In this document: positions 7,763 to 35,135 of the stretch, one piece after another
Layout: each line of letters begins with the position of its first letter
How positions within the stretch are numbered: position 1 is the stretch's first letter
IMG/VR virus record: IMGVR_UViG_3300014050_000012
Coordinates: 1-64,000 of that record
From: a virus
DNA length: 64,000 nucleotides
Reading direction: 5' to 3' (one strand)
Notes under the pieces: model-generated
The model's database searches: none
Seen by the model: only the letters and a program-made list of their open reading frames with translations
Told to the model about the DNA's origin: nothing
Position numbers and translations under genes: made by a program

Positions 7763-10700
7763 TTTTGATGATGCATGGTTAGGTCTAGGAGATTTATCTA
7801 AACTAACTATTAGTCGTAATCTTATGATTAATAGATCCAGAGAAGATATAGAAAATCCAGATAAACATTTATTAAAAATTATGAGAGATCCCAATTATTT
7901 AGGATCAACATGCAAACTACTAATGAACATTGAACTACATCCTATACAGATAGCAATATTACAAGAATTTTGGAATAGAGCTTTTCCAATGTTTGTTGCT
8001 AGTCGTGGTTTTGGTAAAAGTTTTTTATTAGCACTATACGCTACATTAAAATGTATCTTTATTCCCGGAACCAAAATAGTTATAGTTGGTGCAGCATTTC
8101 GTCAAAGCAAAGTGATTTTTGAATACATGGAAACGATTTGGAGAAATAGCCCAATTCTAAGGAGCATATTCAATGGCAATGACGACGGCCCGCGAAGAGA
8201 TGTTGATAGATGCACAATGAGATATGGCGACAGCTGGGCTATTGCTATTCCAATGGGTGATGGATGTCTTACTTCTGATACCATGATAACATTCAGTAAT
8301 TGTTTTTCAACACTAGGATCATTATTTGATTTAGATTACGATGAAGAACTAGATACTGTTAATAACTGTGAAGTTTGGGACAATATTAAGTTTGAAAAAA
8401 GTTTACATAAAAGATATAATGGATTAAAAGATACAATTAAAATCAAAACAAAAAGAGGATTTGTTCTAGAGGGGACACATAATCATGAAATTAAGGTATT
8501 TGATGGAAATAATGTGATTTGGAAAAGATTAGATTCTATCAACATAAATGATAAAATCCTAATAGATGTATCAGAAAGATGGCACGAAGGAACAACAGAA
8601 CTAACAACAGACGAATCTTATGCTTTAGGATTGATGATAGGAGATGGCTGTTGGACCAATAAATATAGATTAAGATATACATCTAATGATCCAGAACTAG
8701 TAATAGCATTAGAAAAAGGCACAGGATATAAATTTTATCAATGTTCTGATGGTATTCATTATAATCATGATAGTATAAAAAATGTTAAAAAATGGATGAA
8801 CAAGTGGCAAATTGATCATACATATACTAAAGACAAGCATTTACCAGAACCTATTCTTCATAGTTCTCAAGAAATAATGAGCGCTTGTTTAAGAGGTATT
8901 TTTGATACAGATGGACATGTTCAAGGGAATAAGGCCAAAGGAGGTATTGGAATAACAATAAGTTTAACCAATACTTCAGAAAAATTAATGAAACAAATTC
9001 ATTATATTTTATTACATTACGGTATTGTCTCTACTCTTAAATCGCGAAAACGCAAAAAACAATGGAATACTATTTATGAGTTATTGATTAATGGTTATAA
9101 CGTCAAAAAATTTGCAGAAAAAATTGGCTTTGGATTAAAACGTAAACAACATTCTCTAATAGAATATATATCAAAAAAACAGAAATGGTTATCTCAAGAA
9201 AAATATTATAATAGTTTTTTATTAGATTATATTACAGATATTAGTTATGATCGTAATTACACATACGATATAGAAGTTGAAAATTCTCATCAATATAATG
9301 CTAATGGTATATGTGTTCATAATAGTAAAATCAGAGGTCTAAGAGCACATATTATTATCGCAGACGAATTTGCGTCAATATCTCCAGATATTTATGAAAC
9401 GGTTGTTTCAGGTTTCGCAGCCGTGAGCGCTAGTCCAATACAAAATGTAAAAGAACAAGCTAAAAAAACAGCGATGCAAGAAATGGGCATATGGAATGAT
9501 GAATTAGAAGCATTAGACACAAAAATGAGCAATCAGGCCATAATAGCAGGAACAGCCGACTATGCTTTTAAGCATTTTGCTAAATATTGGAATAGATATA
9601 AAACTATTATTAATAGTAAAGGAGATATTAATAAACTCAAAGATGTATTTCCAGAAAGTGTTCCAGAAAATTTTAATTGGAAAGACTATAGTATAGTAAG
9701 AATACCATATGAATTAATTCCTAAAGGATTTATGGATGATAAACAAGTTGCTAGAGCAAAAGCCACTATTCATACTGGTATCTATAATATGGAATATGCC
9801 GCTTGTTTTGTTGAGGATAGTGAAGGATTTTTTAGGCGTAGTCTAGTAGAAAGTTGTGTTGTATCAACAGAAAAAAATATCACAGATTCCCAAGGAAGAC
9901 CAATACTTTTTGACGCAACAGTTAAGGGTTCCTCACACAAGCAGTATATATATGGCATCGATCCTGCATCAGAAAATGATAATTTTAGTATAGTTATTTT
10001 AGAATTAAACAATGATCATAATAGAGTAGTATATTGCTGGACAACTAATCGTAGTAATTTTAAAGATCGTCAAAAGACAGGGCTAGTAGAAGATCATGAC
10101 TTCTATGGTTTTTGTGCAAGAAAAATTAGAAATTTAATGAAAACTTTTCCATGCGCTAGAATAGGATTAGATGCTCAAGGAGGAGGTATAGCTATAGAAG
10201 AAGCTTTACATGATCCTGATAAGTTAAATGATGGAGAAATATTAATTTGGCCAACTATAGACTACAGCAAATCCAAAGAAACTGATAATCAGCAAGGATT
10301 GCACATACTTGAACTTATACAATTCGCTAGAGCAGATTGGACTAGTCAAGCTAATCATGGTTTACGAAAAGATATGGAAGATAAAGTATTGCTATTTCCA
10401 AGATTTGATAATCTTACACTAGGTTTAACACTAGCATCAGAGGGACAGGATATATTAACAACAGATCTTAATCCTATTTATGATAATCTTAGCGAATGTG
10501 TTGTAGAAATTGAAGAACTTAAAAACGAATTAACCACAATTGTTATGACACAAACTAGTCAGGGCCCCAATGCTAGAGATAGATGGGATACTCCAGAAGT
10601 AAAACTAACTAGCGGTAAAAAAGGTAGATTAAGAAAAGATAGATATAGCGCATTACTTATTGCTAATATGCTAGCAAGACAAATGACTAGATCATATAAA

Positions 10701-10835
10701 ACTATCGAATATGATGTTGTAGGAGAAAACGCTAAAAATGCTACAAAATTAAATGGTCAAATGTACAAAGGTCCAGAATGGTTTACGTCCAACGCTAATG
10801 ATAATGATATATATTTGGGTATTTATAATAATTGA
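7752..10835 (+). CDS. terL: Terminase large subunit, intein-containing precursor
   Basis: ATP-driven DNA packaging motor and headful nuclease. Start ATG 7752 is chosen (MSYN...) because it overlaps the upstream stop; the frame extends to 7719 without a better signal. Walker A lies at residues 84-90 (S-R-G-F-G-K-S). Walker B I-I-I-A-D538-E539 follows the intein. The C-terminal RNase H-fold nuclease shows G-I-D-P-A-S and G-L-D-A-Q-G-G-G. The ORF encodes 1027 residues; removing the 353-residue intein leaves 674, a normal TerL size. The intein splits the ATPase domain, so packaging depends on splicing. Confidence 0.95.
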   Translation: MSYNFDDAWLGLGDLSKLTISRNLMINRSREDIENPDKHLLKIMRDPNYLGSTCKLLMNIELHPIQIAILQEFWNRAFPMFVASRGFGKSFLLALYATLKCIFIPGTKIVIVGAAFRQSKVIFEYMETIWRNSPILRSIFNGNDDGPRRDVDRCTMRYGDSWAIAIPMGDGCLTSDTMITFSNCFSTLGSLFDLDYDEELDTVNNCEVWDNIKFEKSLHKRYNGLKDTIKIKTKRGFVLEGTHNHEIKVFDGNNVIWKRLDSININDKILIDVSERWHEGTTELTTDESYALGLMIGDGCWTNKYRLRYTSNDPELVIALEKGTGYKFYQCSDGIHYNHDSIKNVKKWMNKWQIDHTYTKDKHLPEPILHSSQEIMSACLRGIFDTDGHVQGNKAKGGIGITISLTNTSEKLMKQIHYILLHYGIVSTLKSRKRKKQWNTIYELLINGYNVKKFAEKIGFGLKRKQHSLIEYISKKQKWLSQEKYYNSFLLDYITDISYDRNYTYDIEVENSHQYNANGICVHNSKIRGLRAHIIIADEFASISPDIYETVVSGFAAVSASPIQNVKEQAKKTAMQEMGIWNDELEALDTKMSNQAIIAGTADYAFKHFAKYWNRYKTIINSKGDINKLKDVFPESVPENFNWKDYSIVRIPYELIPKGFMDDKQVARAKATIHTGIYNMEYAACFVEDSEGFFRRSLVESCVVSTEKNITDSQGRPILFDATVKGSSHKQYIYGIDPASENDNFSIVILELNNDHNRVVYCWTTNRSNFKDRQKTGLVEDHDFYGFCARKIRNLMKTFPCARIGLDAQGGGIAIEEALHDPDKLNDGEILIWPTIDYSKSKETDNQQGLHILELIQFARADWTSQANHGLRKDMEDKVLLFPRFDNLTLGLTLASEGQDILTTDLNPIYDNLSECVVEIEELKNELTTIVMTQTSQGPNARDRWDTPEVKLTSGKKGRLRKDRYSALLIANMLARQMTRSYKTIEYDVVGENAKNATKLNGQMYKGPEWFTSNANDNDIYLGIYNN
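8265..9323 (+). mobile_element. Intein with LAGLIDADG homing endonuclease inside TerL (353 aa)
   Basis: The element starts at Cys (C-L-T-S-D-T-M-I, block A) and ends with V-H-N followed by Ser as +1 extein residue. Block B is G-T-H-N-H-E-I. Two LAGLIDADG motifs are present: Y-A-L-G-L-M-I-G-D-G and C-L-R-G-I-F-D-T-D-G. Block F is Y-D-I-E-V-E-N-S-H-Q-Y. All residues needed for class 1 splicing (Cys1, block B His, His-Asn end, Ser+1) are in place, so it should splice, and both endonuclease acidic residues are kept, so homing may still be active. It lies between Walker A and Walker B, in the highly conserved G-D-G/S-K-I-R-G-L-R-A site. Confidence 0.95.
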
Positions 10836-17393: not shown

Positions 17394-19130
17394 ATGCCAA
17401 TTAATAATTTAATTCAATTTAGAAGAGGATCAACAACCCAATGGAATAATGCCTCTGGTATTTTAGGACAAGGCATATTATATAATGGTGAATTAGGCTA
17501 CGATACTACAACAAAAAGATTTAAGATAGGCGATGGTTCAACACATTGGGCCAGTGGATTACCATTCACAGCCATAGTACCAAGTGGTTTTTTAAGTAAT
17601 AGTGGTGTTGGATTAATATTAGGAGCAGATGGCTCAACACTTACTATTGGAGTAACAGGAATAGCCGTCTCTCAAGTTAATAATTTTAATCAAGCAGTAT
17701 TGGATCTTGTATCAAGTGCTTCTGTTGACACAGAAGGTGTTCAAGATATTGTTGGTAGTGGAGACCATATAACTACTGGATTTTTACGTAATTGTACTGG
17801 TATAGCTTGGACATATGATGATAATGCTGGAACTTTAAAAGCCTGTGTTACTGGCATACCATCAACTTTGATCACAGATTTTGCAGATGCGGTTTCTGAT
17901 CAAGTAGACACAACTCTTAGTGCTGGTACTGGTATTGTTTTAAGTTATGATAGTAATAGTAATATATTAACTGTTCATACTACAGGATATGCTTACTCCA
18001 ATCATACTCATTTATGGAGTAATATAACAGATGCATCTACCAGAGCCACACTAAATGAGTTGACATATTTATCTGGAGTTATTGCTGGAACAGGATCAGC
18101 TGGTAGGGCCGTAGTATTAGATAGTAGTAAAGATATAACTGGTTTACGAAACTTAACTACTGATGGAAATGTTACCGTTGGAGGTAATCTGGTTGTTCAG
18201 GGTACTACTACTACCGTTAATAGTACAACTGTTGATATTGGAGATAATATCGTACAAGTTAATGTTTCTGGAACAGAAAGTTTAGGCGGATTACAAGTTC
18301 TTGATCATGATAATAGTAAACTTCATCAAATAGTTTGGGATATTAATGATAGTAGATGGGAATTTATTAGTAATTCTGGTTCGTCTCCCAATGTTTATAC
18401 TAGCGGAAACATTACAGCCAATACTATCACATCCACAGTGCCTAATGGTACTGCGCCACTATCAGTATCGTCTTCAACTTTAGTTAATAATTTAAATGCT
18501 GATTTGTTAGATGGTCAGCATGGTAGTTATTATAGAAATTTTGTTAATCTAAGTGGTTTACCAAGTCCAGTAATTACCGGTACATTAACAGGAGATGTTA
18601 CTGGTACTAGCAGTGTTACTCTTACAGAACTTGGTAATGGTATCTTAACCATTAATACAACCATAGCAAATAATAGTGTTGCTCTTGGTACAGATACGAC
18701 TGGTCAATATGCTAGTACAATTACTGTGGTCGGAACAGGATTATCAGCAACATCACCTGGTGTTGATGATGGTACTGCATATACAATTACTAGTAATGCT
18801 ACTCATGCTAATGCTACTGGTACTATCGTGGCGAGAGATGCTAATGGAGATTTTTATGCTGGTACTATATATGCTACATTTAATGGAAATGGTTCTAATG
18901 TTACTAATTTAAATGCTAGTAATATTAATACTGGTACTATTGGAGTAGCTTATTTACCAACTAATATTCCAGTAACAAATTTAGCTAGTAGTGGCGTAAC
19001 GCTAGGTTCCACAACAGTAAATCTTGGTCAAACTAGCACAGTTATTGATGGATTAACAAGAATTAGTGGCGTTAGTGCTCTTAATCCAACTTATATATAC
19101 TATGCTGTAATTGATGGTGGTTCTCCATAA
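17394..19130 (+). CDS. Tail fibre with GDG N-terminus (578 aa)
   Basis: The N-terminus holds the fibre module Q-F-R-R-G-S-T-T-Q-W-N, G-E-L-G-Y-D-T-T-T-K-R-F-K-I-G-D-G, known from major tropism determinant and hyaluronidase-like phage fibres. The remainder is a Gly/Thr/Ser/Asn-rich trimeric-fibre repeat with V-G-G-N-L-V-V-Q-G-T-T-T-T-V-N-S-T-T-V and L-L-D-G-Q-H-G-S-Y-Y-R-N, the latter also present twice in the giant fibre at 35668. It ends in D-G-G-S-P. Role: reversible or specific host adsorption. Confidence 0.82.
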   Translation: MPINNLIQFRRGSTTQWNNASGILGQGILYNGELGYDTTTKRFKIGDGSTHWASGLPFTAIVPSGFLSNSGVGLILGADGSTLTIGVTGIAVSQVNNFNQAVLDLVSSASVDTEGVQDIVGSGDHITTGFLRNCTGIAWTYDDNAGTLKACVTGIPSTLITDFADAVSDQVDTTLSAGTGIVLSYDSNSNILTVHTTGYAYSNHTHLWSNITDASTRATLNELTYLSGVIAGTGSAGRAVVLDSSKDITGLRNLTTDGNVTVGGNLVVQGTTTTVNSTTVDIGDNIVQVNVSGTESLGGLQVLDHDNSKLHQIVWDINDSRWEFISNSGSSPNVYTSGNITANTITSTVPNGTAPLSVSSSTLVNNLNADLLDGQHGSYYRNFVNLSGLPSPVITGTLTGDVTGTSSVTLTELGNGILTINTTIANNSVALGTDTTGQYASTITVVGTGLSATSPGVDDGTAYTITSNATHANATGTIVARDANGDFYAGTIYATFNGNGSNVTNLNASNINTGTIGVAYLPTNIPVTNLASSGVTLGSTTVNLGQTSTVIDGLTRISGVSALNPTYIYYAVIDGGSP

Positions 19131-21565: not shown

Positions 21566-24553
21566 ATGAGTATTAATTTTAACAATCATGATATTACGAC
21601 TAGTGGAAATTTTACTGCAAATAGTGGTAATTTTAATAGCTTAAGTGTTAATAATACACCAGTTAGTATTGTTGGTCATTCTCATACCTCTAGTCATATT
21701 ACTAATTTTAACTCTTCTGTTAGTGGTTTAGTTAGTGGAATATTTGCTCCATTATCTGGTTCTCTTAATCAATTTGCTACCACCTCCTCATCTCAATTAG
21801 CAAGTGTTATTAGCGATGAAACAGGATCAGGATCTCTTGTTTTTTCTAATAGTCCAACCCTAACCGGTATTCCATTAGTTCCAACAGCATTAAGTGGAAC
21901 AAATACTAATCAAATTGCTAGCACAAGTTTTGTACGAACCGAAATTAGCAATCTTGTAAACTCTGCACCAAGCGCTCTTGATACATTAAATGAACTAGCT
22001 GTTGCTTTGGGTAATGATGCTAATTTTAGTACTACAGTAACCAATAGCTTAGCCAATAAAGCTAATCTTAGTGGATCCTCTTTTACAGGTTCAATATCAG
22101 CACCAAGTGGTAATTTTACTCAAAGTTTACAAGTTAATAATACTGGAGTAAGCTTAAGTGGTCATACGCATACTAGTAGTTATATTACAAATTTTAATAG
22201 TAGCGTTAGTGGATTACTTCCAACTATAGCTAATAGTGGAAATAATAGAGTTCTTACTAGTACAGGAAGCACTGTTGGAATTAATGCTGAAAGTAATTTA
22301 ACTTTTGATGGTGAGACATTAGTTATTGGAGAGTATACTGATGACATTGGCGGAAAAATTGTGCTATATAATGGTACTTCTAGCGATGGATTGCCATCTA
22401 TTACTTTTATAGACAATAATGGATATGATACTTTCAAAATATATATGGATGATTCGAACAATAAAAGTTATATAAACACTAATTATGATCACGATTTAAT
22501 TATTAGCGGATCTAACAATAATTCTATTACATTAGATGCTTTTAGTGGAAAAATTGATATTGTTTCTAGTGGAGTTACTATTAGTTCTAGTGGAACAAAT
22601 GTTCCACTCACTATTACTAATGATGGTACTGGTAATAGTTTTGTTGTTAATGATGTTACTGGTGATACGACACCGTTTGTTATTGATAGTTCTGGAAATG
22701 TTGGAATAGGAACAACCACCCCAACGTTTGTAAATAATACTTACTCTGGATTACATATACACGCAGCAACCGCTACTTCATTAAAACTAACAAATACTAC
22801 TACGGGACAAACATCTACGGATGGGTTTGAGTTATTACAGGATTCTGCTGGTAATGCTTATATATGGAATCGAGAAAGTACTAATATATCTATCGGTACT
22901 TCTGGAACGTCGCGTATTATAATAACTAGTGCTGGAAATGTTGGAATAGGAACAATTAGCCCTCAAGCTAGACTACACGTATCTAGTACAAATGATGGAG
23001 TACAAGCAATATTTACTGGAGCGCAAACAGCAAATACACAATCTATATTATTTAGAAGTGCTTATCATACTAATAATGGAACAGCAGGTTTTGCTAATAT
23101 AGGATGGATAGACAATGCATCTCAAGGGGGACATTTAACATTTGGCACAACAACTAGTAATAGTGGCACTACTGGTACTCCAACAGAAAGAATGAGAATA
23201 ACTAGTGCTGGAGACATTGGAATAGGAACAAGTTCAGTCAGTAGTGGATTTAAAGTTGATATTAGAGGTCGTATATTATCCTATACAACAGCTAGTGATG
23301 GACTGATAACAACCCAAGGTTTACAAACAACAAGTGGTGGTACTGGCAAAGCTGCTATTCAAATTGATGTTAATGGAAAAGGTGGCTTTGCATGGCAAAA
23401 CGATGCTTCAAGTGGCACAAGATCTCTAAAATTAATAGAAAATAATGGTTATGGAGCTAGTGAAAGCACATTATGGACAGTACAAAGTGGCGGTAATACT
23501 GGACTCGGAGCATCTCCCTCTAATGATTATAAATTAGTTATTGGTGGTGGAACAAGAACAGATTCATATACTACAAATCCATCTTTAGTAGCTATAAAAG
23601 ATTTTACCAATACCAATACTGGAGATAATCTATCAAGCGCCACATATAGTTATGCTACAACTAATGGTAATTATGCTGTTAGAAATGTAGCTATAAATAC
23701 ATATTTTAAGATTAATTCTGGAATAACAAATAGTGGTAGTAGTATTGGTATAGCTAATAATAATCTACGTAATTATGCATTAACCAATGATATTGGCACA
23801 TTAACTTCATTATATGGTATATATAATCAATATGGTCATTATAATACTTCTGCTGTTTCGCCAGTAACTACAACGGCAATTGGAATACAACATATACTAT
23901 GGAGAGCCGCTGGAACAATAACAAATGCTTTTGATATTTATTGTAGCGATGCTAGTTCTGGCGCTACAGTTACTAACAGATGGGGTATATATGTAGAACA
24001 TACTGGTAAAAATTATTTTGGTGGTAATACTGGCATTGGTGTATCGCCAACATATCGTTTTGAGGTAAGAGGATCTGGAGCTACTAGTTCAACAGTTTCT
24101 TTTTATGTTTCGAACAGTAGTGGCACAGCTCTTTTATATACAAGAGATGACGGAGCCATAAATACTGGAACAGCATCAGTTTCTCCATATAATAATCTAA
24201 CATCTACTGCTGCTAATGTGGTAGTTGGTAGTGATGGATTTTTATATAGATCAACATCATCACTAAGATATAAAACCAACATAAATGATGCCACTCATGG
24301 ACTAAATGAAGTTTTACAATTAAGAAGTGTAACATTTAAAAGCCATAACGATGGAGACAAAATATTTGGTGGTTTAATTGCCGAAGAAGTAGATGAAATA
24401 GGATTAACAGAATTTGTACAATATGATAATCAAAATAGGCCAGATGCTATACATTATAGCAATATGGTTTCACTTTTGATTAAAGCTATACAAGAACAAC
24501 AAATTATGATCAATAACTTAAAAGACCGTTTATCCATTCTAGAGGGAAATTAA
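21566..24553 (+). CDS. Tail fibre/spike with S74 intramolecular chaperone (995 aa)
   Basis: Fibre repeats (shared with the preceding gene) lead into domains with G-N-V-G-I-G-T repeats typical of phage and bacterial trimeric fibres. The C-terminal ~110 residues form a peptidase S74 autoprocessing chaperone: S-L-R-Y-K-T-N-I-N-D with the self-cleavage Ser, G-L-I-A-E-E-V-D-E and a final coiled coil. Such domains fold the trimer, then cut themselves off. Begins five bases after the previous stop and lacks a clear ribosome binding site, so translation is probably coupled. Confidence 0.88.
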   Translation: MSINFNNHDITTSGNFTANSGNFNSLSVNNTPVSIVGHSHTSSHITNFNSSVSGLVSGIFAPLSGSLNQFATTSSSQLASVISDETGSGSLVFSNSPTLTGIPLVPTALSGTNTNQIASTSFVRTEISNLVNSAPSALDTLNELAVALGNDANFSTTVTNSLANKANLSGSSFTGSISAPSGNFTQSLQVNNTGVSLSGHTHTSSYITNFNSSVSGLLPTIANSGNNRVLTSTGSTVGINAESNLTFDGETLVIGEYTDDIGGKIVLYNGTSSDGLPSITFIDNNGYDTFKIYMDDSNNKSYINTNYDHDLIISGSNNNSITLDAFSGKIDIVSSGVTISSSGTNVPLTITNDGTGNSFVVNDVTGDTTPFVIDSSGNVGIGTTTPTFVNNTYSGLHIHAATATSLKLTNTTTGQTSTDGFELLQDSAGNAYIWNRESTNISIGTSGTSRIIITSAGNVGIGTISPQARLHVSSTNDGVQAIFTGAQTANTQSILFRSAYHTNNGTAGFANIGWIDNASQGGHLTFGTTTSNSGTTGTPTERMRITSAGDIGIGTSSVSSGFKVDIRGRILSYTTASDGLITTQGLQTTSGGTGKAAIQIDVNGKGGFAWQNDASSGTRSLKLIENNGYGASESTLWTVQSGGNTGLGASPSNDYKLVIGGGTRTDSYTTNPSLVAIKDFTNTNTGDNLSSATYSYATTNGNYAVRNVAINTYFKINSGITNSGSSIGIANNNLRNYALTNDIGTLTSLYGIYNQYGHYNTSAVSPVTTTAIGIQHILWRAAGTITNAFDIYCSDASSGATVTNRWGIYVEHTGKNYFGGNTGIGVSPTYRFEVRGSGATSSTVSFYVSNSSGTALLYTRDDGAINTGTASVSPYNNLTSTAANVVVGSDGFLYRSTSSLRYKTNINDATHGLNEVLQLRSVTFKSHNDGDKIFGGLIAEEVDEIGLTEFVQYDNQNRPDAIHYSNMVSLLIKAIQEQQIMINNLKDRLSILEGN

Positions 24554-25068: not shown

Positions 25069-28000
25069 ATGGTTAAAATATTAAATTATGCACAAAATAT
25101 TACCAGAAGCAGTAATGATAATCTATTAATAAACGGCAATTTTGACGTTTGGCAAAGAGGATCTCCATTTTTTGCTGGTGGATTTACCGCAGACAGATGG
25201 TATATGATTAGTAATGGTGGCAATCAAGCTTCACGGTTAGCTGGTAATATTGGGTTGGACAACGCATCTAATTGTATAAGACTAAAAACACTATCTTCAG
25301 GATCGTATCCGGTTTTGAGTCAAGCTATTGATAGTGATACTACACTAGATATTAGGGGCAAAACTCTAACATTTAGTTTTTATGCTAAAAAACCTTCTGA
25401 TAGCAATTGGAGTGGTCCGGTATATGGTAACGTATATTATAGTCCTAATTTTGATAACATAAGCAATGGTAAAATAGAGATTATAGATGCTAAATTTAGT
25501 GGTTCTTTAACTTCCGCCGATACTTGGACACTGTTTAAAAATTCTTTTAGTGTTCCGACCAATGCTTCTACATTATTGGTAGAAATATATCCTAGTGGTG
25601 GATTAGCTAATAATTCTATTATTGATATAGGTAGAGCTAAATTGGAAATTGGTAATGTTGTGAGTAATTTTAAGCCTATTACGTATAATGAAGAATTAAC
25701 TAAATGCAAAAGATTTTACCAAAAAGTTGATGCTACTCTAAAAGCTGGCACCGGAGCTGGTAAAAGTAGTAGAAAATTTGGAATCAACATACCGTTACCT
25801 GTACCACCACGATCATCTAATCCAAAAATTAGTATATCTCAAAATAATAATATTTTAATAGATAGTTTTAGTGCAAGTATTACCGAAAACTCTTATCTTA
25901 ATCTTGTTGCTGATACCAAAAATCTATATTCTGAACTAAATTTACAACTAATTATTGATGATGAAATTCTTTATGGTAAAGAACCAGGAGTTATTAATAG
26001 CGCTAGTATTATAAGAGGTAGTGGTAAAGTTGATATCGATTGGAATGCCCCAACTAATAGTGATACAACAATAAGCTATGCTATACTATATGGTAATACT
26101 CCGAATAATATTATTAATATAGCTACTTTTAGTGATTCATCAGGATCAATAACGGGCTTAAGTGATAGTAGTCCATATTACTTTAAATTATATAGTGTTA
26201 ATTCCTATGGCCAATCACCACTATCTAATATTTTTGAGGTTGCTCCGGCTTATAATGTTCCTTCTGGATTAACATCATTAATAGGAGTTTGGGGATTTGA
26301 CACAACCTATCTATCTTGGGATGGACCAAATAATAATGGAGGATCACCAGTAACAGGATATCGAATAGATCGATCAATGTATAGTAATTTTCCTGATGTT
26401 GAGGATGTTCCAAACTATAATTCTACTTTTTATGTTTCTGGTTCATTAAGAAACTTTAATATTAGCAAGTTTAATCCCGAATTAACAACTACTGGTAATT
26501 ATTATTTTAGAGTAGCAGCAATGAATTTGGCCGGTACTGGCACTCCATCATCTTTCACACTAAGAAAAACAACACCGTCCGCTCCCACAGGATTATCATC
26601 TCTTGTTGGTAATGCTTCTGTTACTCTTAATTATTTACCACCCAGTGGTAATGGTGGATTAATAATAGATCATGTTAGTGTTGAAAAAAGCTCATCAAGT
26701 TCTTTCGCCTCAACAACCGGCTCTTTGCATGTGGCAAATTATCAGCCAATTACTCTGAGTGGCTTAACAAATAGTGTTAATTACTATTTTAGAATGAGAG
26801 CATATAATGCTTCTGGATATGGACCATATTCATCAACAATATTAGCTATGCCAAACAAGCCCGTTACTGTTCCTAATGCTCCTCAAACTATTAGTGCTTC
26901 ATGGGTAGATGACGATACTGTTCAAGTATTAATGTCGGCCCCAACAGATGACGGCGGAACCCCTATAATAAATTATACCGTATATTCATCATCCGGATCA
27001 GCATTTGCTACAAATTTAACAACTAGTATAACACAAAACAGCATTCCTAATATAAGTTTTGATGTACCAATAACTGGTAATTATAATACTTTTTATTTTA
27101 GAGCTAAAGCTAATAATAGTGTTGGCTCTAGTACGTATAGTCCTACTGGTTCGTTAGCTAAACAAAGTCCAAATGCTCCAACATTAACCAATATTTTACC
27201 AGGAGACGCATCTGCTACGCTATTATATTCTCAACCCATATCAAGAGGATCAGCAATAACCGGTTATCTTATTGATTATAGCACAAGTAGTAATTTCTCT
27301 TCTAGTACCACTACAACATCAACAACTCTTAGTAAAGTTATTACAGGATTAACTAATAATACTCTTTACTATAGTAGAGTAAGAGCAGCTAATATTATTG
27401 GTACTGGTAGTTATTCTAACATAATCAGTTTTATACCAGTAAGTCCTTATTCTGCACCCACAGCCCCGACTAATCTTACGGTTGGAGAATTAAATTACGG
27501 TTCTGTCTCAAACCCTTTACCTATAAATACTTCAAGTTTTTATGGTTATACACTATATGCTGGATGGATATATTCGGTAATAATAAATAATTCTTATCAA
27601 ACTGCTAATTTTAATTATGGAAACACAGCATTTACTGGACAAGTTTATGGATCTAATCCATATATGAGTTTTTCTGATTTTAGACGAGCAGCTGTTCATG
27701 CTGGAGTATTTTCATCATTATCTTCTACTGGAATATTGTATATTTATGGTGGTATCATTAATGACTTTTTGGTTGGTTCTACTAAAAATAATATATCTTC
27801 ATTAAATTCATTATCAACAATATCTCTACAACAAACATTTAATATTATTGGAGCATCAACTAATACTGGATGTTATTATACTAAAGGAAATGTTGCTGGA
27901 GTTACTACTAATACTCATTCTCCAATATTAAACTGGTCTGGACCGTCTAATAATGGAGGATTACCTATTACGGGTTATGAAATTCAATATGCTGCCAACA

Positions 28001-28905
28001 GTTCATTCTCTAGTCAATTAACAACATTATCTGTTCCTGGTAAACTTAATTATCATACTCAATGTATATCTCATAGTGGAGTAGATTTATATGCTAGAAT
28101 AAGAGCATATAATGCTACTGGCGTATCTCCATGGTCAGATACTGCCTTTATACTAGGCAAAGGTTTAGGCGCTCCACAACCACCAACTTCTGTAACAGCA
28201 GCAGCAATTGGAACAACAGGGATATTTTTATCTTGGTCAGCTCCTAGCAATCCTATTGGCAGTGGTTTTGATAGTCCATCGAATATTACTTATCGTTTAC
28301 AATATTGGAACCAGACTACTCCAACAGTTCAAACGGCAATTAATTATAGTGGAGTAACATCAGCAGCAGTTCCTATTAATGGACCAGGTACATATACACT
28401 ACAATTACAAACAAAAAATAGTATTTATTTTAGTAATAGTAATAATACTGTATTAATTGTTACGGCAAACACTTCTACTCCAACAACTTGGACTTTATCT
28501 ACTAGTACTCCTTGTTGTGGTACCGCTACTCCTGATATTTTAGTATCTAAATTAAGAGATAATCTTAATGAAAATGGTAGTACTTTTAGCAGTTGTGCTG
28601 GACCTAGTGGTCTTGCTTTTATAACTGCTGATTTTGGAGGAGTTAAAAAAGTAACAAATATTTCTATTCGTCCACATTATTTCTATGGACCATACTATTT
28701 AAATCATACCTTATTAGAAGGTAGTGTGGATGGTATTAATTGGACTACTATTTGGAATTTTGGAAACTACACAGGTTCTGCATCTATTTTTACTGATAAT
28801 ACAACCACACAAACCACAAGCGGTGGCTGGATGAATTTTAGATATATTAGATTAAAATCTGGTAATGTAGGATGTATAGATTTATCGGAATTTAAATTCT
28901 CATGA
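25069..28905 (+). CDS. Multi-Fn3 tail fibre with carbohydrate-binding ends (1278 aa)
   Basis: The N-terminus has L-L-I-N-G-N-F-D-V-W-Q-R-G and T-A-D-R-W, a jelly-roll module frequent in phage fibres. From about residue 300 to 1120 follow six or seven fibronectin type III-like units marked by P-S-N-N-G-G-x-P-I-T-G-Y and Y-x-R-x-R-A-x-N repeats. The last ~130 residues (C-C-G-T, D-F-G-G-V-K-K-V-T-N-I, Y-I-R-L-K-S-G) resemble a discoidin/F5-8C-like sugar-binding tip. Fn3 units in phages bind or space adhesins on the bacterial surface. AAGGA ribosome binding site. Confidence 0.8.
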   Translation: MVKILNYAQNITRSSNDNLLINGNFDVWQRGSPFFAGGFTADRWYMISNGGNQASRLAGNIGLDNASNCIRLKTLSSGSYPVLSQAIDSDTTLDIRGKTLTFSFYAKKPSDSNWSGPVYGNVYYSPNFDNISNGKIEIIDAKFSGSLTSADTWTLFKNSFSVPTNASTLLVEIYPSGGLANNSIIDIGRAKLEIGNVVSNFKPITYNEELTKCKRFYQKVDATLKAGTGAGKSSRKFGINIPLPVPPRSSNPKISISQNNNILIDSFSASITENSYLNLVADTKNLYSELNLQLIIDDEILYGKEPGVINSASIIRGSGKVDIDWNAPTNSDTTISYAILYGNTPNNIINIATFSDSSGSITGLSDSSPYYFKLYSVNSYGQSPLSNIFEVAPAYNVPSGLTSLIGVWGFDTTYLSWDGPNNNGGSPVTGYRIDRSMYSNFPDVEDVPNYNSTFYVSGSLRNFNISKFNPELTTTGNYYFRVAAMNLAGTGTPSSFTLRKTTPSAPTGLSSLVGNASVTLNYLPPSGNGGLIIDHVSVEKSSSSSFASTTGSLHVANYQPITLSGLTNSVNYYFRMRAYNASGYGPYSSTILAMPNKPVTVPNAPQTISASWVDDDTVQVLMSAPTDDGGTPIINYTVYSSSGSAFATNLTTSITQNSIPNISFDVPITGNYNTFYFRAKANNSVGSSTYSPTGSLAKQSPNAPTLTNILPGDASATLLYSQPISRGSAITGYLIDYSTSSNFSSSTTTTSTTLSKVITGLTNNTLYYSRVRAANIIGTGSYSNIISFIPVSPYSAPTAPTNLTVGELNYGSVSNPLPINTSSFYGYTLYAGWIYSVIINNSYQTANFNYGNTAFTGQVYGSNPYMSFSDFRRAAVHAGVFSSLSSTGILYIYGGIINDFLVGSTKNNISSLNSLSTISLQQTFNIIGASTNTGCYYTKGNVAGVTTNTHSPILNWSGPSNNGGLPITGYEIQYAANSSFSSQLTTLSVPGKLNYHTQCISHSGVDLYARIRAYNATGVSPWSDTAFILGKGLGAPQPPTSVTAAAIGTTGIFLSWSAPSNPIGSGFDSPSNITYRLQYWNQTTPTVQTAINYSGVTSAAVPINGPGTYTLQLQTKNSIYFSNSNNTVLIVTANTSTPTTWTLSTSTPCCGTATPDILVSKLRDNLNENGSTFSSCAGPSGLAFITADFGGVKKVTNISIRPHYFYGPYYLNHTLLEGSVDGINWTTIWNFGNYTGSASIFTDNTTTQTTSGGWMNFRYIRLKSGNVGCIDLSEFKFS

Positions 28906-30071
28906 TATGTAACTATGCCAATATATACGACTATTGCTGTAATAAATATTCATATGCATATGCTAGCTTTATCACTAATAATAATTATGTAATAGCAAAT
29001 ACTGGATACGATGGATCAGTTTACCGAACAGACAAAACTACTAATGAAACAGTTTTATTACAACCTAATTCATCATTACAAATAAAAACTTGCGACCTTA
29101 ATGACGAAAGTCCTGAGCTTAATGCGTGGGAATGTTACTTATGGTATAAAAATAATAATTGCGGATTAGTTAGTGATCCTCCGTTAGAAGATTACCAATT
29201 AGCTCAGATTGATCTTATTAATAGTAACTATGATAGTGCTCTAGATAATGGTTTATTAATCACAATATCTAATTTTGCTACTAATATTAGTTTATCAGTA
29301 AACGGAGCATATTCTAACACTACCATTTCTGAAACTACAAATTTTAGTATAGTATTACCAGCAAAAAAAGATGACGTTATTAACTTTAGCAATATACTAT
29401 CACTAGCCACACTACTAAATGCTAATGATGATTCGTCTCCGTTGCCACCATTGATAGACTACTATAATAATGCTCATTTTTTAAACTATTATAATCTAAC
29501 CAATATTTTATCTAACTATTTTAATAAACTAAAGTCTTATAAGATCATAAAAGATAACTTGATAAATAATATATTAAACTCTAGCACAATATCTGATATT
29601 CAAAAACAAACTTTTGCTCCGTCTTACACATCAACCTTAACTTCTGATAAAAATACAAACTTATCAAGTAAAAATAGTATTATTGTTAAATTTAGTTCAT
29701 TAAGTTGTGAAGAAAAAGAAAAATTGTGCGATCCTCCATGCGATCCAACTAATTGCCAAAGTTGCGTGGATGGAGAGTGTGTGAGTAATTGCTCAGAAGG
29801 ACAGTGTTGTAGTAATGGAGTATGTGTAGAAGAATGTGATCGAACAGTTTGTACAGATAGCGGTACATGTAGCGAAATATCTTGCGATGACTGTGACTGT
29901 CCAATAGGATACGATTGTGTCTTTTCTGGTTTAACATTTGCATGTATTAAATACTACGAGGTTCCAGACAATGTTGATAATTGTCAAGATTATCTAGGTT
30001 CTCCATCCTATAATTGGACAGGACCCACCACACAAAATGGTACATGCGTTAATGGGCAATGTGAGTACTAA
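28902..30071 (+). CDS. Cys-rich adhesin-like protein, paralog 1 of 3 (389 aa)
   Basis: First of three tandem paralogs that all begin M-I-C-N-Y-x-N-I-x-D-Y-C. A ~250-residue conserved body (D-K-T-T/D-x-E, C-x2-N/T-D, W-E-C-Y, S-D-P-P-L) is followed by a disulfide-type tail starting C-D-P-P-C-D-P-T-N-C-Q-S-C-V-D-G-E-C. The tail has over 25 cysteines in 130 residues, unusual for an intracellular phage product, and would form disulfides only in the mature virion outside the cell. Probably a virion surface or fibre-tip protein; family not recognised. Overlaps the previous gene by ATGA. Confidence 0.65.
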   Translation: MICNYANIYDYCCNKYSYAYASFITNNNYVIANTGYDGSVYRTDKTTNETVLLQPNSSLQIKTCDLNDESPELNAWECYLWYKNNNCGLVSDPPLEDYQLAQIDLINSNYDSALDNGLLITISNFATNISLSVNGAYSNTTISETTNFSIVLPAKKDDVINFSNILSLATLLNANDDSSPLPPLIDYYNNAHFLNYYNLTNILSNYFNKLKSYKIIKDNLINNILNSSTISDIQKQTFAPSYTSTLTSDKNTNLSSKNSIIVKFSSLSCEEKEKLCDPPCDPTNCQSCVDGECVSNCSEGQCCSNGVCVEECDRTVCTDSGTCSEISCDDCDCPIGYDCVFSGLTFACIKYYEVPDNVDNCQDYLGSPSYNWTGPTTQNGTCVNGQCEY

Positions 30072-30073
30072 TT

Positions 30074-31144
30074 ATGATATGTAACTATCAAAATATAACT
30101 GATTATTGTTTAAATAAGTTTACTTATCAGTATGCTAGTGTTCCCACAGCAACTAGTGGAGATTTAATTACCAGTGTTATTCGCACAGATAAAGATTCTG
30201 GTGAAATTATAACTATTGGTCCAAATACTGAGCTATATGTTTTACCATGCGATAGCAATGATTTAGTAGAAGTAATATCAGTATGGGAATGTTATCAAAT
30301 TTTTGTTAATAATAATAATCTAGTTAATAAAGTAGACACAAGTATTATTAAAAATAATAAACAAGCAGAAATTACTAATAATTATGATCTTAATCTTCAA
30401 GATAGTATAAGTATAAATTTAAATAATTTTAATACCATAATGCTAGACAGCTCTACTGAAAATCAAATTCATCTTGGCAACATATTTTGTTTAGCTAATA
30501 TACTATACAACGAAGATGTTAATAGTGTTATGCCATATATATTAGACATTAATAATATAGCCTATTATTTTAGCTATAATGATTTAAAAAGCTTGCTAAA
30601 AACTTATTTTTATAAAGTAGCTAAAGTTAAAAATATAAAAGATGATTTGTTGTTTCAAGTATCATCAGATACTAATAGTGAAGATATAAATAGTAAATCG
30701 TTGTGTAAAAATAAAGTAGCAGTTAATATATTTAAGGAAAATAAAACTATTGATATTTCAACATATAAAAATCCAATACTAGTTAGTTTACCACCAGAAA
30801 TTTGTGATCCTCCGTGTGATCCAGCTAATTGCCAAAGTTGCGTGGATGGAGAGTGTGTGAGTAATTGCTCAGAAGAACAGTGCTGTAACGACGGCGTATG
30901 CGGGGAGTGCTCGGAGCCATGTGAGACAGACGCAGACTGCGGCATCTGTCGCTGTTGCGTAAACGGCTTTTGCCAGGACCCCGGAGGTGTTGAACTGTTT
31001 ACTTTTGAGCCAGGAGGCGCAAACGTATGTCCTGATGGGCGTGACTACGCAGGCGGTCCGGAAGGCACTTCGGATTACTACTGTTGCGTTGGCAACGGTA
31101 GAGCGTTGAATCCATTCCTGTGCCCTGGTGCTTGTTGCCCGTGA
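30074..31144 (+). CDS. Cys-rich adhesin-like protein, paralog 2 of 3, with GC-rich tail (356 aa)
   Basis: Body as in paralog 1. The tail repeats C-D-P-P-C-D-P-A-N-C-Q-S-C-V-D-G-E-C and then changes to a different Cys-rich module (E-C-S-E-P-C-E-T-D-A-D-C-G-I-C). The DNA coding this last part (about 30880-31143) is roughly 55-63% GC by hand count against about 30% around it, and uses codons rare elsewhere in the window. The junction follows a 51-base stretch (30825-30875) identical to 29749-29799 in paralog 1. The tail therefore looks imported by recombination. It ends in P-G-A-C-C-P. Confidence 0.65.
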   Translation: MICNYQNITDYCLNKFTYQYASVPTATSGDLITSVIRTDKDSGEIITIGPNTELYVLPCDSNDLVEVISVWECYQIFVNNNNLVNKVDTSIIKNNKQAEITNNYDLNLQDSISINLNNFNTIMLDSSTENQIHLGNIFCLANILYNEDVNSVMPYILDINNIAYYFSYNDLKSLLKTYFYKVAKVKNIKDDLLFQVSSDTNSEDINSKSLCKNKVAVNIFKENKTIDISTYKNPILVSLPPEICDPPCDPANCQSCVDGECVSNCSEEQCCNDGVCGECSEPCETDADCGICRCCVNGFCQDPGGVELFTFEPGGANVCPDGRDYAGGPEGTSDYYCCVGNGRALNPFLCPGACCP

Positions 31145-31177
31145 AGTACCCGATATCTTTGATTTGTAAGGTTTTAT

Positions 31178-32323
31178 ATGATATGTAACTATCAAAATAT
31201 AAATGACTACTGCTTAAACCAATACTCTTATCAATTTATTGGTACAATATCTAATAATGGAGTGGTATCCATAGACAAATCGGAAACTGCTCCAGTATTA
31301 CGTACTGATAAAACTACTGGAGAAAATAAAGTTATCTCACAGTTTTCTAGCAATATCATCAAACCGTGCTCTAGCACAGACGACAACGAAAGTACGACAG
31401 AATGGGAATGTTACATTATATATAGATACATAGGAAGCGGATATATTAGTGATCCTCCACTAGATACCTTAAAAAATGCCCAAATAGATATTATTAATAA
31501 CTCTTATGATAGTTCTTTAGATGAAGGTATTTTAGTAAATATTAATAATACAAATGTTATATTAGGATCAACCATCGAAGATCAGATATACTATCAAAGT
31601 ATTTTAAATTATTCTCAAGCACTATACGACGACGACTCTGATGCTGTTATGCCATCTTTTAGTGATTCTCAAAATAAAGTATATTCAGTATCATATAATA
31701 CTTTAGTTTCTATTTTTAAAACCTACTTTAATAAAGTAATATATTACAAAAATCTCAAAGAATCTCTAGTCTCTCAATGCTTAAATTGTAACACATTATC
31801 AGATATAGAAACTTTAAATTGGTGCGATACTAAGGTTTTGATTAGTAATATACAATCTACAAAAATAGTAACTAATGTAGAAAAAACTAGCGTTCAGAAT
31901 TGTGAAGATATCGCGATTAGTGGACCACTGTGTGATCCTCCGTGCGATCCGGACAGTTGTGAAAGTTGTGTGAATGGAGAATGTGTTAGCTATTGTTCAG
32001 AAGGAGAGTGTTGTATTAATGGAGAGTGTACAATAAATAGTTCTTGTTATTATTGTTACCATGAAACCGGAGCACCTGATGCAGCAACTTGCTATAGCTT
32101 ATATTCTGTGCCCGGACTAGAATTTTTGTTTTGTCCTCCATCACCAGAATCTCCTCCTGGAAGTTATGGAGACTGTCATATGTGGGTACTCGGAGACGCG
32201 TCATTAACTACACAACAAGATAGAGATAATTACTGTACATATGATTCCGGTATTCCATCAATACCTACATCTGGTAATTGTAATACAGGATCTTGTGTAT
32301 TTGACGTTAGTAATTTATGTTAA
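31178..32323 (+). CDS. Cys-rich adhesin-like protein, paralog 3 of 3 (381 aa)
   Basis: Same N-terminal body as the two previous genes, with an AAGG site. The tail begins C-D-P-P-C-D-P-D-S-C-E-S-C-V-N-G-E-C and ends in a unique 90-residue Cys/Pro/Ser/Tyr-rich domain of normal local base composition. The three paralogs thus share a conserved base and vary at the tip, as expected for receptor-binding or decoy proteins. Its TAA directly abuts the stop of the convergent leftward gene at 32324, with no room for a terminator. Confidence 0.65.
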   Translation: MICNYQNINDYCLNQYSYQFIGTISNNGVVSIDKSETAPVLRTDKTTGENKVISQFSSNIIKPCSSTDDNESTTEWECYIIYRYIGSGYISDPPLDTLKNAQIDIINNSYDSSLDEGILVNINNTNVILGSTIEDQIYYQSILNYSQALYDDDSDAVMPSFSDSQNKVYSVSYNTLVSIFKTYFNKVIYYKNLKESLVSQCLNCNTLSDIETLNWCDTKVLISNIQSTKIVTNVEKTSVQNCEDIAISGPLCDPPCDPDSCESCVNGECVSYCSEGECCINGECTINSSCYYCYHETGAPDAATCYSLYSVPGLEFLFCPPSPESPPGSYGDCHMWVLGDASLTTQQDRDNYCTYDSGIPSIPTSGNCNTGSCVFDVSNLC

Positions 32324-32908
32324 TTAGATCTTATAATTAAATTTTTTAGCATCAGGTTCCCACCAATTTTTTAATTTTTCTATCATTTCAACCGTTAATA
32401 CATCTTGATATTTTGGGGTGCTAGAGCCCATACCCGGATCAAACTGATTACTACTTAATAGTTGTCCTTTATGTTGTAATATTTTAAGATTAATCAAATG
32501 ATCTTCTAAAAATTCATTTTTAATAATATAATCATATTCTAGATCTTTAATAATATCACATTGATTAGATCTATAAAAATAAAATTCATACCATTCATTT
32601 GCTACAGCATCAACAAAGTGTTTTAGTTGTGTTACTGGTTGAAAAGTCATTACTTGTTCTTTTGCCATATGAGCCCATAAACTCACCAATCTTTGTAGCG
32701 GATGTCTCACCACAACAACCACCTTCCACTTGAAGGGTGCTTGTGGTAAAATTATTGAATGATGATCATAATATTTTGGATCATTTCCGCTAGGTCCAAT
32801 ACAGAAAACTCCTCTATAAGGAACTCTACACAACGTTTCAAATAGTGCGGTACTACCGGTTTTTGGTAAAGTAATAATTGCGGTTTGTTGAGCATATAAT
32901 AATATCAT
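32324..32908 (-). CDS. Sulfotransferase family protein (194 aa)
   Basis: Transfers sulfate from PAPS to an acceptor, most often a carbohydrate. The 5'-phosphosulfate loop is L-P-K-T-G-S-T-A near residue 14 and the 3'-phosphate motif is V-V-R-H-P-L-Q-R-L-V-S near residue 67, the two hallmarks of the family. At 194 residues it is a little short (cellular members are 230-300) but both sites are present. It follows the HAD gene on the minus strand with an ATGA overlap, so they form one transcript opposite to all surrounding fibre genes. Likely target: a glycan on the virion or host surface (inference). Confidence 0.8.
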   Translation of the reverse strand: MILLYAQQTAIITLPKTGSTALFETLCRVPYRGVFCIGPSGNDPKYYDHHSIILPQAPFKWKVVVVVRHPLQRLVSLWAHMAKEQVMTFQPVTQLKHFVDAVANEWYEFYFYRSNQCDIIKDLEYDYIIKNEFLEDHLINLKILQHKGQLLSSNQFDPGMGSSTPKYQDVLTVEMIEKLKNWWEPDAKKFNYKI

Positions 32909-34503
32909 GATAATATTCTTATATTTTTACGTTTTTCCCATAATGAATGTACAACACTATCGGTATATGTGGCTTTATTCATTAGTTTCATTAGTATCTG
33001 AGTTAAATCTTCTTCCCCATTAATACGATCTCTATATAATATACACCCTTGTATAGCAGACTTTATACAGTTGTCAAATATCTTACAAATGGTCTGATTG
33101 TGCTCGCTCTTTTTTCGAATAGCTTCTCCACCCCATCCTACCATCGGCCCAAGATCCGGAGCAATATTAAATTTTTCTAAAATTGTGCCACAACAACACT
33201 TTAAACCATTTTTAGAAGCTAATCTATTATGATTAAATCTGGTATTTTCTAATGTTTCTGGAAATATTCTATCAAAACACATTATAAAATTTTGCACATT
33301 AATATTTTTAATATTATTATCAGCATGTTCAGTAACGAATAATATTTTTTGCTCCACGCCCTGTTGTTTAAAAAAATGTCCGGAACTATATCCTGTTCCG
33401 TGTAGATCCACAATTGTTTTATTATTAGTTGTATTTAATACATATTCTTTATATTCGTCACTATATGGATAATAGTAACTATTTCTACAAGACTCCAAAA
33501 CTGGCACATTAGTATCAAAAATACTATCATATATTTGTTTCCAAAAATAACAATCTCTATAAGAAAAAACTATATTTTTAGGTAATAAATAACTACTATT
33601 AATAAGTAAGGGAATATTATATGATGCTTGCTCTGTCCATAATATGTACTCATCAAATCTGGATGTGTTAATGGGTTGATCAATCCATTGTGCAGATATA
33701 TCTTTTTTATTATATTCGTTTAGTACAGTGATACTGTTTTGATTTTTATACAGATAATAGGTCGTCTCTGAAAAAGTATCCTCTAATATAATTTTTTCAC
33801 TATTTTCATTAAGTTGATTTAATAAAGATATTTCTCCATTTTTTTCTAGAATCCAATAAACACCATAACAGCGGCTCAATGATCCATTATCAAATATTAT
33901 TTCTTTATATGGAATAAAATATGGATTGGATAATCTAATATATTTAATCCAATATGCTAAATAGGGGGAATATCTCTCTATAATTTTTTCAGTATTTGTT
34001 AAATAAGAAGATCCATAATATATAGTATTTATTCCATAATTTCTTGGAGTAATAACATCAGAATGAATACTATCTCCTATATGAAACTTAATATCATACT
34101 TTTCTCTTAGTTCATTCCATATGCTACCATTTGCTTTTCTTCCATATGTGGAATATACTTTTACGTCCTTGTCTAAACCATGATATCTTAAAATATCTAA
34201 AATTTCTTCTGATGATAAATACATATCAGAAACGATAATATCACCATCTTTTATTCTATTAAAATTTTCTTTTATAGGATAACTATATTTTTTTTCTAGT
34301 TCTAATTCTAGTAAGCTGTCATGGCCCGATAAATGTTCGTATATTCCTTGTAAAGTTTTATTACTAGTTATTTTTTCAGCACGGATTCTTTTTTGCACAA
34401 AATCACTATCGTTTGTATAGTGTGCTATAAGTTCAAAAATACTTTTTGGATAATGATAATATCTTGATATTAAAGTATCAAAACAATCCCACGAAACTAT
34501 CAT
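32905..34503 (-). CDS. HAD-superfamily hydrolase with long C-terminal domain (532 aa)
   Basis: Residues 1-190 hold HAD motifs: S-W-D5-C-F-D7-T-L (motif I, nucleophile and acid/base Asp), I-V-S-D-M-Y-L (motif II) and H-I-G-D-S-I-H-S-D-V (motif IV). This variant (D-x-F-D-T-L...S-D-M-Y-L) is common in polysaccharide and glycosyltransferase loci. The C-terminal 340 residues are Tyr- and Asn-rich with a C-C-C-G cluster and are not recognised. Start ATG 34503 has an AGAGG site. First gene of a leftward two-gene island; the shared control region is 34504-34565. Confidence 0.75.
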   Translation of the reverse strand: MIVSWDCFDTLISRYYHYPKSIFELIAHYTNDSDFVQKRIRAEKITSNKTLQGIYEHLSGHDSLLELELEKKYSYPIKENFNRIKDGDIIVSDMYLSSEEILDILRYHGLDKDVKVYSTYGRKANGSIWNELREKYDIKFHIGDSIHSDVITPRNYGINTIYYGSSYLTNTEKIIERYSPYLAYWIKYIRLSNPYFIPYKEIIFDNGSLSRCYGVYWILEKNGEISLLNQLNENSEKIILEDTFSETTYYLYKNQNSITVLNEYNKKDISAQWIDQPINTSRFDEYILWTEQASYNIPLLINSSYLLPKNIVFSYRDCYFWKQIYDSIFDTNVPVLESCRNSYYYPYSDEYKEYVLNTTNNKTIVDLHGTGYSSGHFFKQQGVEQKILFVTEHADNNIKNINVQNFIMCFDRIFPETLENTRFNHNRLASKNGLKCCCGTILEKFNIAPDLGPMVGWGGEAIRKKSEHNQTICKIFDNCIKSAIQGCILYRDRINGEEDLTQILMKLMNKATYTDSVVHSLWEKRKNIRILS

Positions 34504-34565: not shown

Positions 34566-35135
34566 ATGAATTTAGATCATGAAATTACTATTCAACCACC
34601 ACCTTTTACAGATAATAATGGTAAATTAGTAGAACCAAAACCATTAGTTTTTAATAGTCTAAATGTAAGTTATATTGATAATCCATCTTCAAAAACAGTA
34701 TTTGCACATATTCAAAATATACCGAATAGGATTTTGTTATTAAGTCCAACAGAATATGAAACTTTTGGTGATTATACTCAAAATCAGATAGAAAATAAAT
34801 TACGAGAAAAATTAGGTGAAAATATAGCTAGTACTTTACGATCATTATTTCCTCAAACACTAGAAGAAAATCCTAATGGTCCTGGTACTATTCTTGCCGG
34901 AATGTTTAGTTCTTTAGGTATCAAAACCAGCCCAACGTGTTCGTGCAAGAGACATGCATTAGAAATGAATAGAAACGGTGTTGATTGGTGCGAACAAAAT
35001 ATATCTACTATTGTTGGTTGGCTAAAGGAAGAAAGCTCCAAGCGCAAAATTCCTTTTGTAGAAAGTTTAGCTATTTTAGTTGTTAAAAGAGCAATTCGTA
35101 AATCAAAACAAGCCACATATTCTGTTCAAAAATAA
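34566..35135 (+). CDS. Cys-motif protein, paralog of 7199-7762 (189 aa)
   Basis: Shares with the product of 7199-7762 the I-T-I-x-P-P-P-F/Y-T-D start, Y-I-D-N/S-P, N-G-P-G-T-I-L, C-S-C-K-x-H-A-x2-M-N, W-C-E-x-N-I and the final W-L-K-x-E. Identity is spread over the full length. One copy adjoins the terminase and the other the giant fibre, so a role in DNA packaging alone is unlikely; a DNA-bound or virion-attached role is possible. Function unknown. Strong TAGGAG site. Confidence 0.7.
   Translation: MNLDHEITIQPPPFTDNNGKLVEPKPLVFNSLNVSYIDNPSSKTVFAHIQNIPNRILLLSPTEYETFGDYTQNQIENKLREKLGENIASTLRSLFPQTLEENPNGPGTILAGMFSSLGIKTSPTCSCKRHALEMNRNGVDWCEQNISTIVGWLKEESSKRKIPFVESLAILVVKRAIRKSKQATYSVQK

Follow-up and report, generated by a model that had tools for sequence, protein, structure and literature searches.

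Import of a GC-rich tip into one of three tandem, putative tail-protein genes of an AT-rich phage

Three tandem paralogs follow a fibre-like gene

The window, that is, the whole 64,000-nt stretch of DNA analysed here, is part of an 88,908-base IMG/VR virus record that is AT-rich (34% GC). It encodes three tandem plus-strand paralogs (slots 1-3), whose ORF translations carry MICNY at the N-terminus and a Cys-rich tip at the C-terminus. A gene for a 1278-aa fibre-like protein lies directly upstream of slot 1, so the paralogs occupy the position in which DUF4376 chaperones are found. The features of this region are:

25069-28905, plus strand: tail protein encoded upstream of slot 1, with domains of fibronectin-III and F5/8 type C-like type; its gene shares 4 nt with the start of slot 1
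28902-30071, plus strand: slot 1 (paralog 1), an ORF with a DUF4376-like body (predicted fold) and a family B Cys-rich tip (core 29829-30068)
29722-29824, plus strand: anchor repeat of slot 1, CDPPCDPxxCxxCVxGECVxxCSE.CC..GV, direct-repeat family D1
30074-31144, plus strand: slot 2 (paralog 2), an ORF with a DUF4376-like body (predicted fold, 24% GC) and an imported GC-rich tip
30798-30900, plus strand: anchor repeat of slot 2 (D1), which contains the 5' crossover at ~30878-30888
30825-30875, plus strand: 51-nt run within the anchor, identical to 29749-29799 in slot 1
31178-32323, plus strand: slot 3 (paralog 3), an ORF with a body 94-95% nt identical to relatives L004/L006
31178-31258, plus strand: gene-start repeat of the next paralog, family D2, 81 nt, with three copies (28902, 30074, 31178)
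31926-32028, plus strand: anchor repeat of slot 3 (D1)
34566-35135, plus strand: 189-aa protein with a homologue (39% over 80 aa) directly downstream of the donor Cys-rich gene described below

A blind repeat search of these 3.5 kb returned two three-copy families of at least 80 nt: the 103-nt anchor and an 81-nt repeat at the gene start. Together they flank the tips of slots 1 and 2, and the gene-start repeat is a possible source of 3' homology for exchanges in these two slots. The same search gave only two inverted repeats, both chance-like. The 51-base identity between slots 1 and 2 that an earlier note on this DNA had reported is exact.

Other genes of the window were also noted. A sulfotransferase-like gene and a 532-aa gene without a family lie on the minus strand (32324-34503) inside the plus-strand tail region and are kept in relatives. 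The 189-aa protein has a paralog at 7199-7762, and both carry an SPTCxC...A..M motif; it is their homologue that the donor lineage has just 3' of its Cys-rich gene. The large terminase gene (7719-10835) is split by a LAGLIDADG intein. The tail gene at 17394-19130 has an N-terminal Mtd_N (major tropism determinant) domain, in a record in which no reverse transcriptase was found. A single ORF at 54504-64000 has no stop before the window end (>3,160 codons), runs on into the rest of the record, and is probably the tape measure gene. A gene desert at 54.5-64 kb was ruled out, as the region is this one open-ended giant ORF.

The bodies have a predicted DUF4376-like fold

The 18 paralogs matched no Pfam family at E<=5 beyond two chance matches. 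DUF4376 gave no sequence match, and we therefore call the paralogs DUF4376-like in fold and not DUF4376 members. Slot 2 and slot 1 each served as query for an AlphaFold model; both models were built on the same 18 sequences and are not fully independent. In both, the body fold matches phage DUF4376 proteins (Foldseek search of BFVD; lowest E-values 9e-6 and 8e-5, with probability 1.00), and most named top matches are DUF4376. The tip is modelled with low confidence (pLDDT below 50). DUF4376 proteins are tail-fibre chaperones that have been proposed as caps (PMC10579305, PMC7289586, PMC10877375).

The bodies (~245 residues) are thus predicted by modelling to have the DUF4376 chaperone/cap fold and would sit on fibre ends. 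The tips are probably receptor-facing, judging from position, fold and variation pattern; a search of the tips against receptor-binding families returned no match. The earlier note had spoken of an adhesin tip. The tip swap itself holds, but "adhesin" stays presumptive, given the chaperone/cap fold of the body and no recognised adhesin domain.

The slot-2 tip stands out in base composition

The earlier note had described an abrupt rise from about 30% to 55-63% GC at the end of slot 2. Sliding GC and GC3 windows confirm the jump, with the body nearer 24% and a 200-nt maximum in the tip of 58%, not 63%. The tip is bounded as follows:

30876-31143, plus strand: GC-rich imported tip, as delimited in the earlier note; 57% GC, seen in GC and GC3 windows

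This stretch has a GC fraction of 0.571, compared with 0.336 on average over the window (sd 0.052, 268-nt windows), and every 268-nt window with GC at least as high starts within 30874-30890. Its GC3 is 0.51 against a mean of 0.165 (sd 0.057) across 16,063 79-codon windows in 32 genes. Only windows on the tip reach that value, which makes the tip the GC3 extreme of all coding windows in this codon-position check. The reading frame and the Cys richness are kept across the tip in the ORF translation, in line with the earlier note, which had spoken of frame and Cys pattern.

The tip matches a 63%-GC phage lineage

The earlier note had proposed a search for the tip in other phages, and IMG/VR was searched with the tip alone; all records compared here are metagenomic. 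The matches are an identical record (L003) and three contigs at 62-64% GC, where the matching sequence encodes the final part of a Cys-rich protein that is free-standing and has 224 residues. The search thus uncovered a donor-type lineage of 63% GC:

30866-31138, plus strand: donor-like stretch, 86% nt identity over 273 nt to L046 (and the identical L047)

The third contig, L048, is 81% nt identical over 30879-31138 (260 nt). Over 257 sites the window differs from L046 at 34 and from L048 at 50, and L046 from L048 at 41, which places the window tip inside the diversity of the donor tips. Changes unique to the window tip comprise 14 from GC to AT and 3 from AT to GC, as expected for a move into an AT-rich genome, with a modest bias (two-sided p = 0.013 against equal flux and p = 0.055 against base composition).

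We conclude that the slot-2 tip, the last ~90 residues, came from the gene pool of a 63%-GC phage unrelated to this one. The comparison demonstrates the import together with its nearest known source, contigs L046/L047, which are ~14% divergent from the window tip; the exact donor is not among the matches. Both the window and the donor-type phages could have received the tip from a third lineage.

Beyond the tip, the parts of donor and window that were compared share only weak protein matches (35-47% aa identity), and 20 kb of window DNA found no match in donor contig G005. The donor lineage is otherwise nearly unrelated to the window phage. An antisense donor-window match was rejected as a separate homology because it is the same tip on the other strand. 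The donor Cys-rich gene sits in a head-gene neighbourhood. Contig G005 carries a serine recombinase, which suggests, as a suggestion only, that this phage may be temperate.

Neither for the donor protein nor for the bodies did two scans of GTDB genomes return a relative, and the tips found no match in Pfam. The tips have one weak match in the PDB, to a small inhibitor peptide (E 0.07), and one among 50,697 phage records, to Synechococcus phage S-SCSM2R (E 6e-3).

The 5' crossover lies inside the Cys anchor

In a three-way alignment, the window tracks relative L004 to ~30882 and the donor type (L046/L048) from 30883. The 5' crossover therefore falls at ~30878-30888, inside the Cys anchor, and this junction is demonstrated directly. 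With a donor-type lineage found and the crossover mapped, the earlier note's idea of tip replacement by recombination at a conserved anchor is borne out. The 3' side is marked by two features:

31138-31139, plus strand: 18-nt in-frame length difference; the donor has 18 extra nt just before the gene end
31141-31158, plus strand: leftover from the beginning of the gene that comes next in the donor, GTGAAGTACCCGATATCT in the window against ATGAAGCACCTCATATCC in the donor, overlapping the stop codon

The leftover GTGAAGTACCCGATATCT is without apparent use in the window and marks the import of DNA. A return to AT-rich sequence after the stop had also been claimed. The sequence does return to that of the phage on the 3' side, but the foreign DNA runs ~14 nt past the stop codon.

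Relatives with the same GC-rich tail would have spoken against replacement, according to the earlier note; L004, L006, L007, L008 and L010 are all without it. L003 alone among the related records carries the tail. As it is 100% identical over all parts compared (same population), it is not an independent confirmation.

Tips differ between near-identical relatives

The three bodies of L004/L005 and L006 are 91-95% identical to those of the window (91-97% at the aa level), and all three tips differ. The bodies of L008 and L010 are 94-98% aa identical to each other, while two of the three tips are unrelated (slots 1 and 3, with bodies 94-97% identical). Conversely, L007 and L010 have a slot-3 tip in common at 92% aa and 93% nt identity, against 75% and 78% for the bodies. 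The swaps are hence repeated, and the comparisons demonstrate one tip family in different slots. Family B occupies slot 1 in the window, and its homologues are the slot-2 tips of L006, L008 and L010. Family C occupies slot 2 in the window, and L006 has it in slot 3 in a distant, AT-rich form (z-score 9.6, 0/300 shuffles). The slot-3 tip of the window has no similar tip among those found.

The anchors record such exchanges as well. The slot-1 anchor of the window has an identity of 0.86-0.88 to slot-2 anchors and of only 0.74-0.75 to its slot-1 counterparts in L004/L006, despite slot-1 bodies that are 93-95% identical. In the donor lineage, the tips of L053 and L049 are unrelated, although the flanking sequence is 92% identical on the upstream side and 97% on the downstream side; L052 retains the anchor, which is followed by a different tip. 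Across all 2.9 million IMG/VR contigs, the motif CCN[ND]GVCG is confined to contigs of these two lineages. Both patterns expected of recombining tips were found: near-identical phages with unrelated C-terminal ends, and a tip common to an otherwise unrelated phage. These alignments make the slot-2 import one readable instance of a recurring traffic in exchangeable protein ends.

Some records and genes depart from this layout. In L007 (7130-8011), slot 1 stops after a 20-residue anchor stump and is a paralog without a tip. The slot-3 tips of L008 (9076-10293) and L010 (9076-10194), families H and I, are not Cys-rich and are swapped elsewhere, upstream of the expected anchor position. The tail-fibre gene at 21566-24553, which has a Peptidase_S74 end, likewise proves mosaic when the window is compared with L004/L006: conserved sequence surrounds the stretches that were replaced. 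Anchor matches in L015, L017, L019, L023, L026 and L027 were judged chance-like, and L011 was rejected as a relative, as it has a different Cys-rich protein.

Recombination and alternative explanations

In the mechanism that we propose, each of three tandem tail genes would join a conserved body, by way of a short and likewise conserved anchor rich in Cys, to a C-terminal tip that is mostly Cys-rich and can be exchanged, and the tips would be replaced by homologous or homeologous recombination. One crossover would fall in the anchor and the other near or beyond the stop codon, with the start of the next paralog serving as the second repeat for the 3' crossover. Slot 2 would have received its tip from the gene pool of a 63%-GC lineage whose own Cys-rich protein likewise ends at this anchor motif. 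The exchange may have taken place between co-infecting phages or with a prophage. Taken as a whole, with cap-like tail proteins, tip exchange by homologous/homeologous recombination and the slot-2 import from a 63%-GC lineage, this account is in our view highly probable. The identity of the acting recombinase is something that we infer.

A dedicated diversification device that changes tips within the genome (a retroelement, an invertible shufflon or silent-cassette conversion) would accommodate the shufflon-like combination of a constant body, a variable C-terminal end and repeats on both sides. It could also draw on the Mtd_N domain at 17394-19130, of a kind linked to diversity-generating retroelements, and on the 51-nt identity and slot-2-like anchor of slot 1, which suggest exchange between slots. 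However, neither a reverse transcriptase nor a serine or tyrosine recombinase was found in the 88.9-kb record, itself a fragment in which a distant recombinase could be missed, and no copy of the paralog protein occurs in the record outside the three slots. Relative G003 (177.9 kb) has only three anchors, all forward, and a RecA-family gene, and no reverse transcriptase or serine recombinase was found in it. The 128.3-kb relative likewise yielded no reverse transcriptase of the kind a retroelement target would call for (these records may be incomplete), and three relatives contain no reverse-oriented anchor, as a shufflon would. Moreover, the tips differ throughout and not at scattered positions, and breakpoints vary along the anchor. 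We consider such a device improbable. Ordinary homologous/homeologous recombination is favoured because these enzymes and extra copies were not found, the three anchors are forward, a RecA-family gene is present and the breakpoints vary.

An assembly chimera, with an AT-rich phage contig joined to reads of a GC-rich phage sharing the anchor, is very improbable. The shared anchor is the type of repeat that can mislead an assembler, and donor-type L046 and recipient-type L006 are both in metagenome 3300043803. Nevertheless, all donor-type contigs found diverge from the tip by 13-19%, there is a length difference of 18 nt that keeps the frame, and most changes go towards AT. The frame is intact, phage sequence resumes on the 3' side, the same junctions occur in L003 (not independent), and same-anchor swaps are seen across all three slots in several relatives. 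Fast evolution of the tips in place, with a GC difference reflecting Cys, Gly and Pro composition, has next to no chance. Tips generally are richer in GC (35-46%) than their own bodies (24-31%), partly through composition, but the slot-2 tip has a GC3 of 0.51-0.52 against 0.11-0.33 across the other 17 tips. For slot 2, divergence in place is refuted, since an unrelated phage of 63% GC matches it at 86% nt identity and the match extends past the stop codon. It is unlikely, if worth keeping in mind, that the swaps are real and the tips are disulphide-locked structural caps, enzyme inhibitors or protease-resistant decoys with no part in receptor binding. The tips are Cys-rich with no recognisable binding domain, their weak PDB match is an inhibitor peptide, and the donor protein is free-standing among head genes. 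Against this, the genes directly follow a tail-fibre-like gene, the bodies have the predicted fold of fibre chaperones/caps, and variation between near-identical phages is only at the C-terminal end, as in receptor-binding tips.

Implications

Exchange of tips by recombination at the anchor, the reading that we prefer, leaves a captured transfer in slot 2: the sequence shows where the junction lies, which known lineage is the nearest source, and what was left over from the adjacent donor gene. With it, one can test how phages come together and exchange parts for host recognition between lineages. The anchor motif is a search handle for a family of exchangeable Cys-rich tips that is unnamed in current libraries. 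Tentatively, at somewhat under an even chance, the Cys-rich anchor may be a standard plug common to unrelated phages of very different base composition, through which tips from a shared pool are fitted to different bodies (the DUF4376-like cap and a Cys-rich repeat protein).

Comparison with known systems

Tail-tip exchange is already known as a kind; what is new is the scaffold, the three-slot layout and an anchor shared across a 30-point GC gap. Haggard-Ljungquist is said to have described in 1992 that tail-fibre genes are exchanged horizontally among unrelated phages (P2 and others). As in such P2-type exchange, segments are traded between unrelated phages by recombination. Here, unlike there, the exchange bridges ~30 points of GC, uses a specific Cys-rich anchor motif, and the cassette moves among three paralogous slots. 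A constant body with a variable C-terminal end is also typical of shufflons, invertible tail-fibre segments and diversity-generating retroelements, from which the present system differs in that no recombinase, reverse transcriptase or silent cassettes were found.

Alteromonas phages V22 (gp27) and A5 (gp9) encode DUF4376 tail-fibre chaperones or transient caps, and host-recognition modules are common to unrelated phages (PMC10579305, PMC7289586). The paralogs resemble these proteins in predicted body fold, in gene position just downstream of a fibre-like gene and in modules shared between unrelated phages. They differ in forming three tandem genes, whereas one chaperone per fibre and no swapped Cys-rich tip are described for V22 and A5 (PMC10579305, PMC7289586).

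The fibre-tip adhesin gp38 of T2-type phages (S16, PP01) has a chaperone-related role and combines a constant part with hypervariable receptor-facing segments between conserved motifs (PMC12892980). No sequence match between gp38 and the window paralogs was found. A constant part with variable, probably receptor-facing segments at the fibre tip is nonetheless the shared theme. In gp38, the variable loops lie between glycine-rich motifs on a polyglycine sandwich, whereas in the window paralogs the entire C-terminal tip, Cys-rich in most cases, comes after a Cys anchor; the body that carries it is DUF4376-like, and three copies lie in tandem.
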